The notes beneath the pieces were generated by a model. That model saw only the letters and a list, made by a program, of their open reading frames with translations, searched no databases and was not told the origin of the DNA. Of a stretch of 24,929 nucleotides of DNA, positions 1,020-20,305 are shown one piece after another. The stretch is from a virus: IMG/VR virus record IMGVR_UViG_3300030450_000497, positions 1-24,929 of that record. One strand, given 5' to 3'. Position 1 is the stretch's first letter. Every line of letters starts with the position of its first letter. The translations under genes were made by a program, and so were the position numbers.

Positions 1020-4000
1020 CTATGTACCAAAGCTTATTGACGGTGAAGTTAATGAACTTAGAAGATATCCGCCAAGTGAAACTATAAACCTTGCGTATGG
1101 GTGCGAAGTCGCAGAATCAAAAGTTACTGTATAAGTGTAAGTTGAAGAGTTTGAAGAGCCTGATATTGACGAAGTTACTGTACAACCAGTGCCATCGTTA
1201 GTTAAAACATTTAAACCACCATTGTGATATCTATGAGAAACGTGATGCAAATGATAACTAGAAGAACCTACAAACATTTCTACAAAAACAGTTTTACCAT
1301 TATATGCTGATGAAAACGTAAGTGTAACTGATGTACGAGAACCATTTGCTCCCTTTTGAATATCTAAACTAATACCTCTAGCTGTAGATGTTCTAAAATC
1401 ACCTGCTACATCTAACTCACCTGTAACATCTACACCATCAGAAGTGGTTTCAAGTTTTTTACTGTTGTCATAAAAGAGTTCTACTGCACCATTACGAACA
1501 CAATGTACAGCAGCTTCTGTATCATTAACTTGTAATCTTAAATCACCTGTATTTCTAATAAAGAATACACCACTGTAATTATGAATAAAAGTATCCGATC
1601 CATTGTGAACAAGTTGCAAATCTTGAGAAGCACCTAACTGTAGTTTTTTGTTATCTCTTGGTAAATTTACGTCACCATTAGAAGTGATTGTAAAAGTATC
1701 TACGGTTGTAGCTGCATTTCTAAAATTAATGTCATCACCGTTTAAAAATAACCTTGTATTACCTGTTATCTGTAAAGCTTCTGAGTTACTACCAGCAACA
1801 AATATTCTATGTTCAGCACCAGATCCCAACGCTCCAGTTATTTTTATATCAGGATTATGACCTGGAGTTGAAACCTTAATTCCAGTTGAGGTTGTCGCAA
1901 ATTTTAGTGAATTATCATAGAAGAGTTCAACATCTCCATCTGGATTAAATTTTGCACTACTTTCATTATTTTTAGGTTGTAACCAAACAGTATTACCACT
2001 TCCACCTATTCCTTTTATAAATGTACTACCAGTGCTATTTGCAATGATGCTGTTATTTGAATCGTGATAAAATTCAAAATCTTGACCAGCACCGATTTGT
2101 AACTTTGCGTTGTCGTTTGGTATCTGTAAGTGACCATCTTCTGTGATTCTTACTAGCTCAGTTCCACTGCCACTATTACCGTTTTTATAAAATCCAAAAT
2201 ATCTATTTGTATCATCATTATCTGAATCAATATTAAACGTCATTAATTCAAAGGCGTTTAAATGACCAGAGGCAGTATCAGCAGCACCTAGTGTTAACTG
2301 CCCTCCACTAATAGTTGCATCACCTGTAACCGATACACCTGTTGAAGTTGTCTCAAACTTTTTGCTGTTATTGTGAGATAACTCTATCGCCCCACCGTCA
2401 TTAAATTTAAGACCAGTTGTAGAAGCTGATTGGTTTCCTATAATTATGACACCATCATTTTGAATATAAAAATTACCAGTTTGGTTTTTAATATATCCTG
2501 TTGAACCAGTATGGTGTATTAATAGGTCAATATCATCTCCAAATGCTGCTAAGACATTATCACCTAACTTAATTCCATTAGCATATGTCTCAAACTTTTT
2601 ACTGTTGTCGTAAAAGAGTTCTACGGCTCCGTTTGCAACGCAATGTACAGCAGCTTCAGTATTATTAACGCGTAATCTTAAATCACCTGCGTTTTGAATG
2701 AAGAAAACACCAGTTGAGTTTGTAATATTACTATCACTTGCATCATGAAAAATCTCTAAATCTTGAGATGTTCCAAAAGTAGCTTTAATATTATCTATAT
2801 GTCGAACATCACCATATGGTTGTATTCCAGTTGATGTTGTAACAAGTCTTATAGCGTTGTCATAATAAAGTTCAACCCTATCGTTCTCTGTACATTTAAT
2901 ATGAGTTTCATCGTTAACACCACCTATATAAACATTATCAGTACCTTGTAAAATTAAATCGCCTGTAGCTGCTACCTTAGAAGCACCACCACCAGAATGA
3001 GTAATATTTAATTGATTAGAACCAGAACCAGAACTAAATGTTCCAGATGTCGTAATATTCCCTGTTACTGAAATTCCATCTGATGCTGTTATTAATCTAG
3101 TAGTGGCTCCATGTTTAAATTCGCAAGCTCCACCAGTATTGAATCTTGCCATTGTTCTATTATTAGCAGAATCGTAAAAAGTAATATAACTTCCATTGGT
3201 TTCTAGACTAAAACTTCCACTACCATACTCAGCCAAAATTGAAGCGTTATCAGCAGAACGGTGAAATATTTGAAGGTCACTTCCAGTACCAAGTATTAAT
3301 TTTTTATCATCAGGTAATGCAATATGTTCACTACTTGTCCAGGAATCTGTAGCATCTAACCACTGGAACGTCTTATTCGTAGCACCTAATAAAGTTATAC
3401 CACCACCGTCAGCAGTAGTATCAGTAGGAGTTGATACCTTGCCTAGTTCAATATTTTTATCTTCAACTGTAAGCGTAGTCGTATCAATGGTTGTGGTCGT
3501 TCCATTAACAGTGAAGTTACCACCTACTGTTAGATCCCCAGTGATCGTTCCACCAGCAAGAGGTAATTTAGTTCCAACAGTTGTATTTAAGGCTTGAATA
3601 TCAACGCCATCAACTGTTCCACCAACTACAATATCTGCACCTATACTGACATTTCCATTAGATAGAATTGTCATTGCTGTAGTGCTTTGATTTACTTGAA
3701 ATACTAAAGCTTTGCCTGTTACGGCTCTAACAATAGGATTTCCATTAGTAGCTGTAAAACTTAAATGACCTAAAGCAGATGTATCACCCCATTGAACAGA
3801 AGCCTCCCCATTTCCAAACAATTTTGAAGATCCTGTTACGTCAAGACCAGCACCAACATCTAAATTACCTGTTACATCAACATGACCATCTGAATTTATT
3901 ACAAGTCTATTTGCACTACTTGTCGAATCAACAAAATTTAAAGTACCTCCATTTCCAAAAATTTTAAAATCAGGATTATTATCTGAATCAACAAAAGTAA

Positions 4001-5219
4001 TATTAGGGTCGTTACCAGTAATATTGACAGTTTCGCCTAAACTTGTAGTACCAGTGACAGTTAAACTTTGAGAAACTGTTGCATGACCTGTTACATCAAG
4101 CCCTCCTAATGCGTCAAAATTTCCATGTGATCTGACAGTTCCATTTGCTAATATTGAAAATCTATCGGCAGTATTTGTTGCGTCATATAATAAAAAATTT
4201 CCATCATTGTTTATAATTATAAAGTCAGAATTATTGTTAGTGTCTGTAAGATAAATTCTTGGATAAGTATTACTTATTGTTATATCTGAAGTAAATGATG
4301 GATTGATCTTTGACCCTGCTATCGCTGCACTAGCATCTACTTGAGCATTGACAATACCATTGCTATTCAATAATGTTTTTATCTCTGCTGCGGTTTGATC
4401 AGCAGTAGCATTACTCTCAATACCATTTAATTTTGACAATAAAGCATCAGTAAAAGCATTAGTATCACTGTTACTTTCGTAAGCAGTCTTTATTTCACTT
4501 GCAGTCTGATCTGCTGTCGCACCTGTCTCAATACCATCTAATTTAGTTCCGTCAACAGATACGTCACGGCCATCTACTGTTCCTGTAACTGTGATATTTC
4601 CTGTAACGTCTAACCCTGCTCCAACATCTAGGTTGCCAGTTACGTCAACGTGTCCATCTGTGTTAACTGCAAATTTAGTAGTACCACCATTTTCTTGAAC
4701 AATAAATTGACCACTTTCACTTTTCAAAATATAGTCAGGGTTATTATCAGTATCTGTTAAAAAAATACTCGGTGCTGAGTTAGTTATCGTGATATTTCCA
4801 GATGATGTAATAGCTCCTGTGACATCAAGACCATTAAGATTAGTATTTCCAGTTGTAGTTATAGTCTGCGACCCAAAATCAGGATCAATCTTTGTTCCTG
4901 CAATGGCAGCACTGGCATTTATATCAGCATTAACAATACTTAGATCAGATATATTGGCACTTGTAACAGTAATTGATGTAGGCAATGCACCTGTAGCAAG
5001 TTTTGATAGAGCAATAGCAGCATTACTAGCTATTTTTGCATTATTAACTACTCCATTATCTATAGTTGCTACCGTTCCACCGCCACTAATAACAATATCG
5101 CCTATATCACCATCAGCAAAAGCTGGACCCTGTGGACCCCTTGTTTTTACAGTGACAACACGGGTTTCTCCGTTTACTGTAACCGTATTCTTTGTAGTTG
5201 TAACATTAACTGAAGTCAT
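1020..5219 (-). CDS. Large repetitive tail fibre / tail appendage protein (1399 aa)
   Basis: Residues 1-60 hold a beta-rich N-terminus with one collagen-like RGPQGPA at 27-33. Residues 60-115 carry alanine/isoleucine repeats (NAKIASNAAIALSK, INASAAIAGTKI). Around 222-300 are two helical repeats of the KLDGIE..ATADQTA.EIKT type. From there to about 1270 the chain is a series of beta modules with the phrases LDVTGNITV, DGHVDVTGNLDVG and VELFYDNSKKFETTS. This is typical of trimeric fibre shafts in marine phages. The last 125 residues differ in composition and contain a histidine-rich YHLHHVSHRYH at 1322-1332, a candidate receptor-binding tip. The start overlaps the preceding stop as ATGA. It is the largest gene here, and its position after gpJ and the smaller fibres supports a host-contact role. 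Confidence 0.85.
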   Translation of the reverse strand: MTSVNVTTTKNTVTVNGETRVVTVKTRGPQGPAFADGDIGDIVISGGGTVATIDNGVVNNAKIASNAAIALSKLATGALPTSITVTSANISDLSIVNADINASAAIAGTKIDPDFGSQTITTTGNTNLNGLDVTGAITSSGNITITNSAPSIFLTDTDNNPDYILKSESGQFIVQENGGTTKFAVNTDGHVDVTGNLDVGAGLDVTGNITVTGTVDGRDVSVDGTKLDGIETGATADQTASEIKTAYESNSDTNAFTDALLSKLNGIESNATADQTAAEIKTLLNSNGIVNAQVDASAAIAGSKINPSFTSDITISNTYPRIYLTDTNNNSDFIIINNDGNFLLYDATNTADRFSILANGTVRSHGNFDALGGLDVTGHATVSQSLTVTGTTSLGETVNITGNDPNITFVDSDNNPDFKIFGNGGTLNFVDSTSSANRLVINSDGHVDVTGNLDVGAGLDVTGSSKLFGNGEASVQWGDTSALGHLSFTATNGNPIVRAVTGKALVFQVNQSTTAMTILSNGNVSIGADIVVGGTVDGVDIQALNTTVGTKLPLAGGTITGDLTVGGNFTVNGTTTTIDTTTLTVEDKNIELGKVSTPTDTTADGGGITLLGATNKTFQWLDATDSWTSSEHIALPDDKKLILGTGSDLQIFHRSADNASILAEYGSGSFSLETNGSYITFYDSANNRTMARFNTGGACEFKHGATTRLITASDGISVTGNITTSGTFSSGSGSNQLNITHSGGGASKVAATGDLILQGTDNVYIGGVNDETHIKCTENDRVELYYDNAIRLVTTSTGIQPYGDVRHIDNIKATFGTSQDLEIFHDASDSNITNSTGVFFIQNAGDLRLRVNNTEAAVHCVANGAVELFYDNSKKFETYANGIKLGDNVLAAFGDDIDLLIHHTGSTGYIKNQTGNFYIQNDGVIIIGNQSASTTGLKFNDGGAIELSHNNSKKFETTSTGVSVTGDATISGGQLTLGAADTASGHLNAFELMTFNIDSDNDDTNRYFGFYKNGNSGSGTELVRITEDGHLQIPNDNAKLQIGAGQDFEFYHDSNNSIIANSTGSTFIKGIGGSGNTVWLQPKNNESSAKFNPDGDVELFYDNSLKFATTSTGIKVSTPGHNPDIKITGALGSGAEHRIFVAGSNSEALQITGNTRLFLNGDDINFRNAATTVDTFTITSNGDVNLPRDNKKLQLGASQDLQLVHNGSDTFIHNYSGVFFIRNTGDLRLQVNDTEAAVHCVRNGAVELFYDNSKKLETTSDGVDVTGELDVAGDFRTSTARGISLDIQKGANGSRTSVTLTFSSAYNGKTVFVEMFVGSSSYHLHHVSHRYHNGGLNVLTNDGTGCTVTSSISGSSNSSTYTYTVTFDSATSHPYARFIVSLGGYLLSSLTSPSISFGT
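1471..2690 (-). repeat. Diverged DNA repeat inside the fibre gene, units 1140 bases apart
   Basis: The segment 1471-1550 aligns without gaps to 2611-2690 with 12 mismatches in 80 bases, exactly 1140 bases (380 codons) apart. Both encode fibre modules with the phrase TEAAVHCVxNGAVELFYDNSKK. Shorter, more diverged copies of the ELFYDNS module lie between them. A second pair encoding DGHVDVTGNLDVGAGLDVTG occurs near 3845-3905 and 4610-4670. The pattern fits expansion of fibre modules by duplication. Confidence 0.8.
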
Positions 5220-13433: not shown

Positions 13434-15121
13434 TAATTTAACAAACCTCCAACTCTTTTTTCATTAATTATTACAGCTTGAACTGCTGCTGCAATCTGTT
13501 CACCAAAAGCATTAGCCTGCTGTGTATTTCCTTGCACATTAGAACCAGATGCATCAACAGAAACATTTATAACAGTAGAACCGCCACCATTAGATTCAAC
13601 ACCTAATCTACCATTACTACCTCTTCTTAAAGGTAAGATAGCTTCTGCACCTGCTTCACCCATTAAACCCATGCCATTCGCCATAGGAAATAATGTTGGT
13701 TTTCGGACTACTGTTCCTCCATAGGCATATTTCTGAACCTGTCCATTAACAAAAGCATTACCATCTGCATTTTTTGTAAATAAACCCTCTATAAAATTAG
13801 TAAATGGTTTTGTAATAGATTCCTGTATTGCAATACGTGCCATATCTTTAATTATGCTATTTGCTAAATTTCTAAAATTTAATTTACCTGTCATTACAAA
13901 ATTAACTAAAGCATCTTCCATACCTTTTATTCCTTTTACTACAACATCTGCCATTGATTCCTGTACAGATTTTAAACCAGACTGAAATTGTTTTAATTTA
14001 TCTCTCATGGCCTGACCAAAAGCATCATTAAGAGAATCTTTTGCATCATCAACTGCATCTGCATTTACATTAATAGTTATAGTTCCACCTTCTTCTGCAC
14101 TCAATCCTTCTATACCTTCTACAATCTGTCCAGCATTAATAATATCTGCAATTACCTTAAAATCTTTTTTTGCCTGTTCTGCAGTATCTTCGAATCCTTT
14201 TTGCATTACTTCCAATGCTGTTTTAAAATCACCTAAAGCAAGACTGCCTAATATTTTTGCTAAATCTATAAAACTTCTTGTTAAAAATCTAACAGAAGCA
14301 AATGTTGCAAAAGCAGCAGAACCAATGATTTTAAATCCTACTTCAACTGCCTTAAATAATTCATTCAATGATTCTTTATCATTTAGAAACTGTTCAACTA
14401 TAAGTGCAAAATCATTAAGTGTTGGTAATAAATTATCTGCTAACTGTAAATTTGCTTCACCTGCAGAAAAACCTATACGTGTAAGAGTATCATTAAAATC
14501 TTCTGCATTTTTTGCAAATCTATCTGATACCTGTGTATTAAATTCCTTAATACCTTTTGCACCCATATTTAAGAATGGTACAAGTTGTGATCCTGATCTT
14601 CCTAATATCTCCATTGCAATGGCAGCCTTTGTAGCACCATCAGGTAAATCTGCAAATCTATCTGCTATCTCACCCAATACCTGTTCTGATGATTTTAAAG
14701 TGCCATCTGTATTTCTAACTGATAAACCTAAATCATCAAAAGCATCTTTGTAAGTAGCAACACCCTGATCTGCTTCACGCATTGACTGGGCTAATCTTCT
14801 TAATCCTCTATCTATTGTTTCCTGTTCAACGCCTGCTAATTTACCTGCTCTTGTATATGCAATAAGTGTATTAGCAGCTATACCTGTCTGTGTACTGAGT
14901 TTTCCAAATCTATCACCAGCATCTATAGCACTTTTAAGTAAACCTGCAAAAGCACCACCAGATATAACAAGACCAAAAGTTGCAAATGTTTTATTAAGAC
15001 CACCCATAGCAAGCCTTAAATTTTTTACCTTACCTGATACACCCTGCATAGAGTTACCAAGCCTTTTTATAGAACCTGCTCCTACTGTTTTTGCTGCTAC
15101 AACTAAATCAAATTTTGCCAT
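13433..15121 (-). CDS. Tail tape measure protein (lambda gpH type)
   Basis: A 562-residue protein. The N-terminal third matches lambda-type tape measures: helical DAGDRFGKLSTQTGIAANTL at 68-87, then ETIDRGLRRLAQSMREADQG and IAMEILGRSGSQLVPFL. A hydrophobic middle (IIGSAAFATFASVRFL) may be the membrane-active part used during DNA entry. The C-terminus has the family signature YGGTVVRKPTLFPMANGMGL followed by GEAGAEAILPL and a terminal TVINVSVDASGS beta motif. At roughly 1.5 angstroms per residue it predicts a tail of about 80-85 nm, shorter than lambda's; this is an estimate. It follows the G/T chaperone pair and overlaps T as TAATG. Confidence 0.93.
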   Translation of the reverse strand: MAKFDLVVAAKTVGAGSIKRLGNSMQGVSGKVKNLRLAMGGLNKTFATFGLVISGGAFAGLLKSAIDAGDRFGKLSTQTGIAANTLIAYTRAGKLAGVEQETIDRGLRRLAQSMREADQGVATYKDAFDDLGLSVRNTDGTLKSSEQVLGEIADRFADLPDGATKAAIAMEILGRSGSQLVPFLNMGAKGIKEFNTQVSDRFAKNAEDFNDTLTRIGFSAGEANLQLADNLLPTLNDFALIVEQFLNDKESLNELFKAVEVGFKIIGSAAFATFASVRFLTRSFIDLAKILGSLALGDFKTALEVMQKGFEDTAEQAKKDFKVIADIINAGQIVEGIEGLSAEEGGTITINVNADAVDDAKDSLNDAFGQAMRDKLKQFQSGLKSVQESMADVVVKGIKGMEDALVNFVMTGKLNFRNLANSIIKDMARIAIQESITKPFTNFIEGLFTKNADGNAFVNGQVQKYAYGGTVVRKPTLFPMANGMGLMGEAGAEAILPLRRGSNGRLGVESNGGGSTVINVSVDASGSNVQGNTQQANAFGEQIAAAVQAVIINEKRVGGLLN

Positions 15122-15438
15122 TATTTATCACTATTAATAATTTTTAGTATTGCAGCTTCCATAATCTGTAAATTTTCCATTAAAGATACAGCATCTTCTA
15201 CTGAATACAGTTTAATCATTTCTAACACAGTTGTATAGTCTAATCCAACAATTCCACTCATACCTACACGCCATTGTGTTTGACAACGTAAAAACATTTC
15301 AACTGTTAACCAGTTTTCTTCATATACATAACAATTATTAATTACTTCTTCTTTTTCTATAACAATACCTAACACTTCATTATCTTCTGCTGTTTTATCT
15401 ATGACTGCTGAACCTGACACCCAATATTCAGCAGCCAT
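15121..15438 (-). CDS. Tail assembly chaperone T part (reached by -1 frameshift from G)
   Basis: A 105-residue frame encoding the T half of a lambda gpG-gpGT-type chaperone. The family signature is FLRCQTQWRVGMSGIVGLDY, with the ending VSLMENLQIMEAAILKIINS. It has an ATG two bases after the stop of G but no ribosome binding site at useful distance. The frame is continuous in -1 with G across the slippery run at 15444-15450, reading L-I before MAAEYW. Most T is therefore expected as a fusion of about 220 residues. In lambda the T part recruits tail tube protein while G coats the tape measure. It is directly followed by the tape measure gene. Confidence 0.85.
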   Translation of the reverse strand: MAAEYWVSGSAVIDKTAEDNEVLGIVIEKEEVINNCYVYEENWLTVEMFLRCQTQWRVGMSGIVGLDYTTVLEMIKLYSVEDAVSLMENLQIMEAAILKIINSDK

Positions 15439-17239: not shown

Positions 17240-17523
17240 CTTTTCTGTATTGCAATTTCACAAAAATTACCATCATCTAACTTTCTAACTTCTCTAACAA
17301 AATATACCGTACTGTCTATAGTTATTCTTGCACCAGCTATAAGATTGCCAAAATCAGAAACTTTTGCAGTAAGTTGATAATCTGTACTTATTATTTGGTT
17401 ACCTGCTAAAACTAAATCTGGCTGCTCTAAAATAGCTTTTGCAGTTGTAGAACCTGATGTACAACTCACACCAAAATCATCAAGGTATGCAGAAAGTGTT
17501 GTACTGTCCTCAACAAGTGCCAT
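17236..17523 (-). CDS. gpFII-like head-tail connector protein
   Basis: A 95-residue protein that fits the lambda gpFII pattern in order: KAILEQPDLVLAGNQIISTD aligns with the gpFII stretch around 'GVFDDP...yaGqgv', followed by YQLTAKVSDFGNLIAGARIT (the 'p.l.vr..dv..l..Gd.l.i' strand pair) and TVYFVREVRKLDDGNFCEIA ('.f.V..v..Ddg.....lg'). gpFII closes the DNA-filled head and accepts the tail. The N-terminus is shorter than in lambda (117 residues). The ATG overlaps the stop of the 54-residue gene as TAATG. Confidence 0.78.
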   Translation of the reverse strand: MALVEDSTTLSAYLDDFGVSCTSGSTTAKAILEQPDLVLAGNQIISTDYQLTAKVSDFGNLIAGARITIDSTVYFVREVRKLDDGNFCEIAIQKR

Positions 17524-17687
17524 TACTTTTTAGTTGTTGTTTTTTTTGGTTTTGGTGTTTCTTTATATTCTTCGGCTTTACCAATACTAATAAGGAAAGA
17601 AGCATCTGCACTAGATACATCATATGTTTTGCCAGCTTCTAAACCAACACCACTTGCACATACATTTTTTAAACACTTTATTTTCAT
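17523..17687 (-). CDS. Small basic-tailed protein after the capsid gene (54 aa)
   Basis: A 54-residue frame begins MKIKCLKNVCASGVGLEAGK, continues TYDVSSADASFLISIGKAEE and ends with a lysine/threonine tail (PKPKKTTTKK). The pattern 'mkvkclknv...G..l.aGk.Ydvs..da..Li.iG.Ae' is familiar from short proteins encoded between capsid and connector genes in many tailed phages; a Src-homology-3-like fold or head accessory role has been suggested to me only by position, and I give no function. The start codon follows the terminator T-tract directly, with no room for a ribosome binding site. The stop overlaps the gpFII-like start as TAATG. Confidence 0.78.
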   Translation of the reverse strand: MKIKCLKNVCASGVGLEAGKTYDVSSADASFLISIGKAEEYKETPKPKKTTTKK

Positions 17688-17714
17688 AAAAAAAAAGGGG
17701 TAGATAGCTACCCC
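17688..17714 (-). terminator. Intrinsic terminator after the capsid polyprotein gene
   Basis: On the minus strand, 14 bases after the capsid stop, GGGGTAG-CTAT-CTACCCC forms a seven-base stem with a four-base loop. It is followed at once by nine T. This is a textbook rho-independent terminator in the coding direction. It would raise capsid mRNA relative to tail genes by partial termination, since no other promoter is obvious before the next gene. Confidence 0.85.
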
Positions 17715-17728
17715 ATATAGTAAACCAA

Positions 17729-20305
17729 TTATGTGGTTACGTCTAAGATTGCAGCAAATGACTGTGCGTGTCTTACAGCAACATCAAATGCAACTACACC
17801 TTTTACTGATACTAAGTTTTTAGCAAAGTCATCAGAATCTTCACCAGCAGTAATTTCAATACCAGATCCGTATAGACCTAAGATTGCCTGTGAGAAGTCA
17901 CCCATGACAACAGCAGAGCAAGAACCACTTGTAGAACCTTTAGTTAGGTTGCTAGGTACTTGGTTTGTCATTGCTAAAGGATAACCATTAACAGCAACAG
18001 GAGTTGCACCTCTACCTAATGCCTGTAGGTTGTTGTTCACTAAGTACTCACCACCAGATGTCTTAAGCTTCTTAATAGCACCCATCACTTTAGCGTTGGT
18101 TACATAAGAAATAGAATCAGCATTAACACCTGCATTATCTTCCATAATTGCAGTTTCTAGATCAATAAGCTTATCAACTGTAATAGCACCACCATTAGTT
18201 CCGATTGCAACTGAACCAATACCAGATGTTTGCATAATACCTGTAGGCTGACCTGATGAACCAGTACCATTAAGTATTCCTAAATCAATACCTAAGTTAA
18301 TACCGTCACTAATGTCTCTTCTAACTAAATCTTCAATGCCTGGAGTTGCCTGTATAAGCATATTCCTAGAGAATTTTGACAGTGTGCCTAAAGTCTTAGG
18401 AGTCATTGAAATCTGGTCAAATGTACTTTCTGCCTGAGATAGTGCAGCAGTTTCACTTGATAAGAAACTAGTAGAAGCAACACCTGATCTCCTAGGTATC
18501 GCAACATCACCAACCAAACCTGATAATGTTTGTACACCTAAACCTACCATTACAGTTGAATTACGTAATGCCTCAATAAAATCATCAGCAAGTAAATCTG
18601 TTGCCACGATGTTTCCACCTGTTGTTGCACCAGAAGTTACGTATGTAGCTCTTTGTACCAAACCACTGTAAGGAATAAATAAAGATCCACTTCTTGTACC
18701 TTTACCTGAGTCCTTTGCAATTTGTTGTGAGATTTCTCTAGCAAAACCTGATGCTTTATCAGACCAATCGTTTGTAATAAGACCTCTTATACCAGCAGAA
18801 AGTCTATAGTCTTTTGCATACTGTTTTCTTTCTTGTGGTGAAAGTTGTTCTTCAATTGGCTTTGCTGTTTCTACAGGTTTTGCATCTAGCTTATCCAAGA
18901 TAGCTTCTCTGCATGAATCTACAGAAGAACCATTGTTAATTAACTGTTCAGCAAGGTCATCAAAACCACGCTTAGAACACATTGCATTGATCTCTCTAAT
19001 TCTTGTGCGTTCTGCGGAAGCAGCTTTTTTAGTAGCTTCACTACGCACAACTTCTAGATCAAGTTGCTCTTTTTCCATAGTTAGTTGTTTTTTAGAATTG
19101 GGCTGTTGTGCGTCAGTAGACGCTGCGTATACACGCTTACTGTTTACTATATCTTGTTTTTCTACACTAGGCATAGTGTTGTCATCAATTAATCCTCTTG
19201 AAATCCCTACATCTGGTGCTGCTGGCGATGCAACAACTGATACCTCATGTGGTTCCCATCTTGTAGCAAGAAAAGCGTTATTTCCATCTATTTCACGTTC
19301 TTCCATCTCTAAAATGCGATAACCTACGCTAATTGACGATAAAATGCCGTCATCTATGTCTCTTTTTACCTCCTGTGCCTTTGCATTTCTGCTTAATTCA
19401 ACAACTGCACGACCTTTTTTCTTTTCCTTATCAAGATATGCGTTTCTAACAATACCTATAACAGAATCCATATTGTGATTCCATAACACTGGTGCAACTC
19501 CACCATTTAACCTTCCAAAATCTATTGCACCATCGTCATGGCTTAGTATTTCTGTACCAAATGATCTTTCTACAGGATATGTACTAGAGAAACTAAATTC
19601 ATATGTGTTTTCTTCTTTTTCAGAAAAAGATGTTTCACCACTTCGTTTTAATACTTTTGTAACACTTCTTAATGAATCTATCTTAGTAAGTGTACTGAAC
19701 TTATGACCAACCTGTACATCTGTTGCCTCATATTCTCCATCATTCTCTCTAAATACAGTTATTAATGCAGCAGGGTCATCTTCTGTACCAGTAATTTCGA
19801 AACTAGAATCAGGTACATTTATAGTGCCATCACGCACAATACGATCTATCTGACCTCTTGCAGTACCACCACTTGCGTTCCATCTAACATAATCTCCTAC
19901 AGATAATGCGTCTGGTTCTGCACGTTTTACAGTACGTTTTGTTTTAGGCATGGCATCATTGTTTCTTAATTCTTTTATTCTAGCTGATTTTGCATCAGAA
20001 AAACTTTTACCTGCTGACCCGCCCCATGCTGCGGCACTAACACGCCCAGGACTTGGATAACCTTTTTCTCCTGGCCTATATCCTTCTGCCTCTTGATCTA
20101 CAGCGTGTCTTGCGTGCCATGCTGACATTTGTACAACAACATCAGGTGATAATTCATTACCACTTAATATTTGTGTTGCCCTCCTACGTGCAACTTCTGT
20201 ACCACCAGCTTCACCTTCTGATTTCCAATCTCTATATCTCTGTGCTTCTTCTCTCATACCTGCTGTAGGCATAAGGTCTATTTCTGTGCCATTAATAACT
20301 GCCAT
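17729..20305 (-). CDS. Prohead protease - HK97-fold major capsid protein fusion with N-terminal and Tudor-like domains
   Basis: An 858-residue chain. Residues 1-115 carry a phage-associated domain with MSAWHARHAVDQEAEGYRPG at 60-79 and PSPGRVSAAAWGGSAGKSF at 84-102. Residues 134-210 match the DUF2945/HVA1 Tudor-like pattern (LSVGDYVRWNASGGTARGQI, later EDDPAALI and VGHKFSTLTKI). Residues 240-365 are the HK97-family protease: H277 in VLWNHN, S326 in SSISVGYR, then EVSVVASPAAP. Residues 410-480 resemble a scaffold-like delta helix, and 545-858 the HK97 capsid fold (VGLGVQTLSGLVGDVAIPRR, ISDGINLGIDLGILNGTGSS). AGAGGG lies about six bases before the ATG, which overlaps the portal gene by 14 bases. 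Self-cleavage between protease and capsid is expected but unproven. Confidence 0.9.
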   Translation of the reverse strand: MAVINGTEIDLMPTAGMREEAQRYRDWKSEGEAGGTEVARRRATQILSGNELSPDVVVQMSAWHARHAVDQEAEGYRPGEKGYPSPGRVSAAAWGGSAGKSFSDAKSARIKELRNNDAMPKTKRTVKRAEPDALSVGDYVRWNASGGTARGQIDRIVRDGTINVPDSSFEITGTEDDPAALITVFRENDGEYEATDVQVGHKFSTLTKIDSLRSVTKVLKRSGETSFSEKEENTYEFSFSSTYPVERSFGTEILSHDDGAIDFGRLNGGVAPVLWNHNMDSVIGIVRNAYLDKEKKKGRAVVELSRNAKAQEVKRDIDDGILSSISVGYRILEMEEREIDGNNAFLATRWEPHEVSVVASPAAPDVGISRGLIDDNTMPSVEKQDIVNSKRVYAASTDAQQPNSKKQLTMEKEQLDLEVVRSEATKKAASAERTRIREINAMCSKRGFDDLAEQLINNGSSVDSCREAILDKLDAKPVETAKPIEEQLSPQERKQYAKDYRLSAGIRGLITNDWSDKASGFAREISQQIAKDSGKGTRSGSLFIPYSGLVQRATYVTSGATTGGNIVATDLLADDFIEALRNSTVMVGLGVQTLSGLVGDVAIPRRSGVASTSFLSSETAALSQAESTFDQISMTPKTLGTLSKFSRNMLIQATPGIEDLVRRDISDGINLGIDLGILNGTGSSGQPTGIMQTSGIGSVAIGTNGGAITVDKLIDLETAIMEDNAGVNADSISYVTNAKVMGAIKKLKTSGGEYLVNNNLQALGRGATPVAVNGYPLAMTNQVPSNLTKGSTSGSCSAVVMGDFSQAILGLYGSGIEITAGEDSDDFAKNLVSVKGVVAFDVAVRHAQSFAAILDVTT

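Follow-up and report, generated by a model that had tools for sequence, protein, structure and literature searches.

A Fused Protease-Scaffold-Capsid Gene Probably Still Acts as Nested Genes through a Start at the Protease/Scaffold Junction

We analyzed a 24,929-nucleotide stretch of viral DNA (the window; IMG/VR record IMGVR_UViG_3300030450_000497) in which the head protease, the scaffold, and the major capsid protein are encoded in one continuous frame. The fused gene probably still acts as nested genes (probability about 0.8): initiation at its first ATG would give a long protease-bearing chain, and initiation at an in-frame ATG at the protease/scaffold junction would give a shorter scaffold-capsid precursor.

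Results

The Fused Gene and Its Locus

The gene lies on the minus strand (20,305→17,729, i.e., window positions 17,729–20,305) and comprises 858 codons plus a stop (91.9 kDa). The ORF list gives an 858-residue frame that begins with ATG and has no internal stop; the plus-strand translation of the same interval is full of stops. The head-tail cluster is of the siphophage type, with the order small and large terminase, head-tail joining protein, portal (which overlaps the start of the fused ORF by 14 nt), and fused gene, followed by a 54-residue ORF (17,523–17,687), a 95-residue Hc1-like head-closure protein, the tail terminator, a tail protein, the tape measure, and fibres. An intrinsic terminator, a stem-loop followed by a T run, lies just past the capsid stop (17,697–17,714, minus strand) and is kept in 62 of 65 relatives. 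Elsewhere in the window (1,020–5,219), a predicted fibre-like protein of 1,399 residues contains many repeats, with motifs such as GLDVTGN and ELFYDNSKKFETT.

The chain consists of five modules, all given here with their minus-strand coordinates. The first is a marine-phage helical domain, D1 (residues 10–115; 19,961–20,278), of which residues 10–111 match phrog_2859. It is predicted to fold confidently (pLDDT 93.5), and searches of Pfam and of PDB folds gave no match, but a structure search returned 50 viral models with E ≤ 0.001, and many of these models carry the name prohead protease, portal, or XkdF. D1 of phage S-CBS3 is 75% identical to that of the window over 85 residues, compared with 34% for the whole chain, and so D1 seems to have been exchanged alone between phages. 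The second module is an Hva1_TUDOR domain (residues 137–183; 19,757–19,897) identified by HMM (PF11160, 30.4 bits against a cut-off of 24.1). Our guess at the role of D1 and TUDOR is that they steer the protease-bearing chain to the portal or to DNA.

The third module is an S78 prohead protease (residues 228–369; 19,199–19,624). Peptidase_S78 (PF04586) matched residues 269–369 (E 5e-10; 40.2 bits against a cut-off of 21), TIGR01543 scored under its cut-off (43.1 against 59), and H256, H277, and S326 are invariant in an alignment of 29 diverse relatives; by this profile and these conserved His and Ser residues, the module is predicted to be a caudovirus prohead protease of the S78 type. Just past the catalytic Ser, synonymous change is suppressed at equivalent places in the CRP-811 gene (codons 343–354) and the window gene (codons 330–341). 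The fourth and fifth modules are a delta-like helical scaffold (residues 410–552; 18,650–19,078) and an HK97-fold major capsid domain (residues 563–858; 17,732–18,619). The capsid domain matched the Phage_capsid HMM over residues 563–852 (E 8e-42; 144 bits against 24.2), passed the cut-off of TIGR01554 (138 against 27.5), and is similar to the solved capsid 8gta (E 2e-31). AlphaFold2 predicted folded N-terminal, TUDOR, protease, and helical scaffold regions joined by low-confidence linkers (residues 116–127, 213–224, and 361–419); it predicted the capsid part poorly, and the grouping of this part with HK97-fold capsids comes from sequence and Foldseek.

A sequence-only reading of this DNA had placed protease and capsid in one stop-free chain, named H277 and S326 as protease residues, seen no separate scaffold or decoration gene, and asked for a structure prediction. 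The ORF list and HMM domains, the invariance of the two residues, and the portal-to-tail interval, which holds only the 54-residue ORF and the Hc1-like protein besides the fused gene, bear these points out, and the predicted structure resolves the chain into modules and linkers. Because one chain carries all three functions (protease, scaffold, and capsid), a single gene does stand in for lambda C, Nu3, and E, as was suggested, or, in HK97 terms, for gp4 and gp5. The count of four domains becomes five.

Protease-Capsid Fusions Are Already Known

Fusion of protease and capsid as such is already known from phrog_617, NF045541, and Microbacterium phages. The phrog_617 profile ("major head protein") covers residues 226–856 of the window protein (profile positions 20–624 of 626, E 2e-108), and NF045541 (scaf_prot_MCP2) matched residues 230–491 only, with 174.9 bits, short of its cut-off of 525. 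Annotated examples of these two families are PPpW-3 and Murka, with R4C, VP882, phiHAP-1, Jilinvirus, and FoX phages as relatives. Like the window gene, such fusions encode protease, scaffold, and capsid in this order in one frame and have the junction ATG, but most lack D1 and TUDOR. Roseobacter phage CRP-811 and Synechococcus phages S-CBS1 and S-CBS3 are full-length relatives that do carry an N-terminal D1; CRP-811 also has TUDOR, whereas the S-CBS phages have a different insert in its place. The fused gene of CRP-823 is annotated as two overlapping frames (1480–2196 and 2156–4408), both called "major capsid protein," which could be a real split or frameshift signal, or an error. In Microbacterium phages, one gene encodes protease, scaffold, and capsid in cluster EE, and protease and capsid in cluster EL, a likeness to the window gene that is one of description only; the passages of that report covered here contain no discussion of an internal start (PMC7302621). 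The layout had been called unusual. This holds for the extra N-terminal pair of modules and for the internal start, but not for the fusion.

An SD-Marked ATG Recurs at the Protease/Scaffold Junction

Every full-length relative examined has an in-frame ATG at the protease/scaffold junction, and an alignment of isolates shows a linker Met in every member, in a linker that is itself unconserved and hypervariable. Where isolates have two Mets in the linker, the candidate was in some cases picked by eye; two surveys, one of all ATGs in the CRP-811 clade and one of fusions in bacterial genomes, avoid that choice. Among 58 dereplicated relatives in the CRP-811 clade, ATG404 was kept in all 58 and had an SD core at −16 to −5 in all 58, against a background of 10% of the other in-frame ATGs and 8% of those out of frame. 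When in-frame ATG columns with at least 40 sequences were compared, the SD core was present throughout at only two: 404 (58/58), which is the protease/scaffold boundary, and 130 (54/54), which is the D1/TUDOR boundary.

For the second survey, on an independent set, we took one bacterial genome per species and obtained 78 long fused ORFs; dereplication at 60% identity left 53. Every one of these had an in-frame linker ATG, and 39 had an SD core there. SD-marked ATGs made up 40 of 66 in the linker versus 23 of 705 elsewhere (sums over 20-residue bins, first bin excluded), and the least-structured ATG of the ORF fell in the linker in 37 of the 53 fusions (3.9 expected). Disordered linkers may have unstructured RNA through their composition. 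Relative to the first linker ATG, the SD cores peak at −15 to −6 and are absent at the offsets to either side, so this signal is not merely that of a K/E-rich linker. Seventeen groups of isolates, represented by one member each, gave the same picture (an SD in 8/17 against 9/266, P = 3e-8, with lack of structure also ranking at the extreme), with P values that are indicative only because the groups are related.

These signals argue that the junction start is very probably used in the fusion family. The earlier view that fusion forces equal amounts of protease and capsid thus loses ground, since internal initiation, for which the family carries strong conserved signals, is an escape that it had itself named. 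In the open-access literature (subscription papers fell mostly outside the search) we found no description of an internal start in such fusions, and as far as we searched this start is undescribed for the protease-capsid fusion family.

Internal Starts and a Constrained Linker in the Window Clade

The proposed scaffold-capsid start of the window gene is ATG410 (19,076–19,078, minus strand), which would give a product of 449 residues (47.0 kDa). A candidate second internal start, ATG119 (19,949–19,951, minus strand), lies at the D1/TUDOR boundary and is the counterpart of CRP-811 ATG130. In contrast to the SD-marked internal starts of CRP-811, ATG410 has no SD. Among the conserved in-frame ATGs of the window clade, the leaders of ATG410 and ATG119 are the most A-rich and the least structured (means of −1.4 and −1.8 kcal/mol, respectively, compared with −7.0 over the whole ORF). 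That the two clades would mark equivalent sites with different signals is the strongest argument for the use of both sites. We consider use of ATG410 in the window's own phage probable, at somewhat lower confidence than for the family, and give even odds to ATG119.

Roughly half of the genes of this phage (window 375–17,687) have an absent or poor SD, several of them with A-rich leaders, and the translation habits of the host may differ from those of E. coli. The start of the gene at 15,121–15,438, ATACAAAAAAAACTAATTATG, is similar to TCTAAAAAACAACTAACTATG at ATG410.

Synonymous change is suppressed over codons 372–421 (19,043–19,192, minus strand; 52 sequences, 0 of 2000 permutations as low), and half of this constraint lies upstream of ATG410. 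Nowhere in the gene is the constraint stronger than at codons 372–393, of which 382–393 are almost frozen. The frozen 36 nt (19,127–19,162) contain a TATAGT/TATGAT alternation next to a small hairpin, GCGT-GTAT-ACGC (19,125–19,136, minus strand). A GCGU-N4-6-ACGC hairpin, with loops of several types and over differing peptides, is kept in 68 of 68 relatives (by chance, a matching complement is present at 23% of other GCGT sites); the consensus RNA fold across all clades is weak as aligned, and only this hairpin survives direct counting. A search of the window for repeats of the constrained 27-mer found no clear one (best other match 17/27). The element may serve as a promoter or for RNA processing, or it may belong to the initiation region.

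This constraint, together with the terminator after the capsid gene, would also suit a different arrangement in the window clade, in which the linker holds a promoter or RNA-processing site that yields a separate capsid mRNA, or in which the start is ATG378 (19,172–19,174, minus strand), which is invariant in the clade and borders the constrained element; a separate mRNA could exist alongside plain internal initiation on the long transcript or replace it. A consensus scan for sigma-70 promoter-like sites in the linker and an Rfam search for an RNA family were both negative. ATG378 lacks an SD, its leader is structured, and it aligns with the start of neither CRP-811 nor Halley (an unfused relative, below); we rejected it as the main internal start. 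We regard this arrangement as unlikely, though it is the best placed of the alternatives. Slightly better, and still tentative, is a combination of three-tier nesting (starts at codons 1, 119, and 410) with a linker promoter or processing element and the terminator, giving a separate capsid mRNA in the window clade. The likeness we draw for this combination is to herpesvirus UL26/UL26.5, in which protease and scaffold share a frame and an internal start provides scaffold in excess over protease.

Capsid Maturation and the Space inside the Prohead

Gene 006 of roseophage R4C encodes a 629-residue fusion, and PDB chain 8gta_A corresponds to residues 362–629 of its product, which shows that matured capsid does derive from a fused gene. 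The R4C product from residue 362 onward aligns with the window protein starting at residue 563. In the R4C virion there are 415 copies of the fused-gene major capsid protein and no decoration protein (PMC10276861). The maturation cut in the window protein would accordingly fall between residues 552 and 563 (18,617–18,652, minus strand). All 29 aligned relatives have R552 (RcRhea, in the separate isolate alignment, has Q), and this residue, like HK97 K103, is basic; HK97 is cut after K103, at K103/S104 (PMC10275583). R552/A553 is thus a reasonable, although unproved, candidate cut site. The mature N terminus had been expected between residues 480 and 555, a range that comes close to our best estimate of about 553–563, taken from R552 and the start of the R4C model.

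If the 858-residue chain were the only product, every capsid subunit would bring its own protease, and the parts would be sorted by self-cleavage. The uninterrupted frame, the retention of the active-site residues, and the origin of the R4C capsid in such a fused gene fit this idea. It leaves the conserved, SD-marked junction ATG unexplained, and 415 copies of residues 1–552 have a computed dry volume of ~30,500 nm3, close to the entire interior of a T=7 prohead if the inner radius is assumed to be 18–20 nm, which is a reason to seek a second start. We therefore consider a single product improbable. HK97 proheads contain ~60 proteases per 415 capsid proteins, and those of D3 ~90 with 540 (PMC12749128).

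Unfused Relatives and Persistence of the Junction Signals

In two relatives, the capsid gene is separate and begins at the junction. In Mycobacterium phage Halley, MEKHLESLRELR aligns with window M410EKEQLDLEVVR, so that an MEK start falls at M410 (the annotated start is 15 codons further upstream than the aligned MEK). In Faecalibacterium phage Epona, whose scaffold is 47% identical to that of the fusion family over 49 columns, the end of the protease gene and the beginning of the capsid gene both fall in the linker, at ATATAGGAGGTACCCATCTATG (stop, SD, ATG). The fused gene therefore looks like two cistrons that lost the stop and kept the second start. Such relatives would also be expected if the junction ATG and SD were leftovers of a recent fusion and no longer used. 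Unused signals should decay, but these persist in 53 fusions that share less than 60% identity and come from many groups of bacteria, and also in 58/58 members of the CRP-811 clade despite a freely varying linker, which makes disuse very improbable.

That an assembly or sequencing error fused two genes or hid a stop, for which residues 365–410 had been flagged as the place to check, can be dismissed, as dozens of independent contigs of marine viruses contain the intact full-length ORF (66–100% identity) and the same long gene is present in cultured S-CBS1, S-CBS3, and CRP-811 (34–37% identity). The IMG/VR search returned 148 stretches that encode relatives, of which 80 were kept, and most loci with complete ends have a frame of 850–900 codons; a pattern search of IMG/VR found no R4C relatives.

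Discussion

We propose that initiation at ATG1 would produce a minority 92-kDa chain with D1, TUDOR, and protease, initiation at ATG410 an abundant 47-kDa scaffold-capsid precursor, and ATG119 possibly a 79-kDa form. The scaffold-capsid parts, identical in long and short chains, would let the two co-assemble, so that a minority of shell subunits would carry the protease in covalently. The protease would then release itself and remove the scaffold by a cut between residues ~552 and 563, leaving ~296–306 residues. The domains, the catalytic residues, the junction ATG with its SD or unstructured leader, and the starts of unfused relatives are the basis in sequence from which we infer the use of the ATG, the product ratio, and the cleavage steps.

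In lambda C/Nu3, protease and scaffold likewise share a frame, and an internal start yields more scaffold than protease. The fused gene resembles it in that, as judged by sequence signals, its protease-bearing frame contains a further in-frame start at the scaffold. The lambda nested product is scaffold only, whereas that of the window gene continues in frame through the capsid protein; the gene would thus work like C/Nu3 but is not a C/Nu3 system. Retention of the C/Nu3 logic inside the fusion appears to be the best explanation of these features. HK97 (gp4/gp5) and D3 resemble the proposed arrangement in another respect, as their scaffold is the N-terminal part of the capsid protein and is removed by an S78-type protease, but they use two separate genes where the window has one continuous frame.

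In the literature searched we found no explanation of how protease is kept scarce relative to at least 415 capsid subunits in these widespread fusions. A family-wide internal start can be tested in cultured phages, among them R4C, VP882, CRP-811, and E. coli phages such as ECO1230-10, and, if true, it would correct many annotations. Covalent attachment to a minority of the shell subunits would be a tidy route for the protease into the prohead, and the family suggests that a phage-head gene fusion can drop a stop codon yet keep the second gene's own expression.
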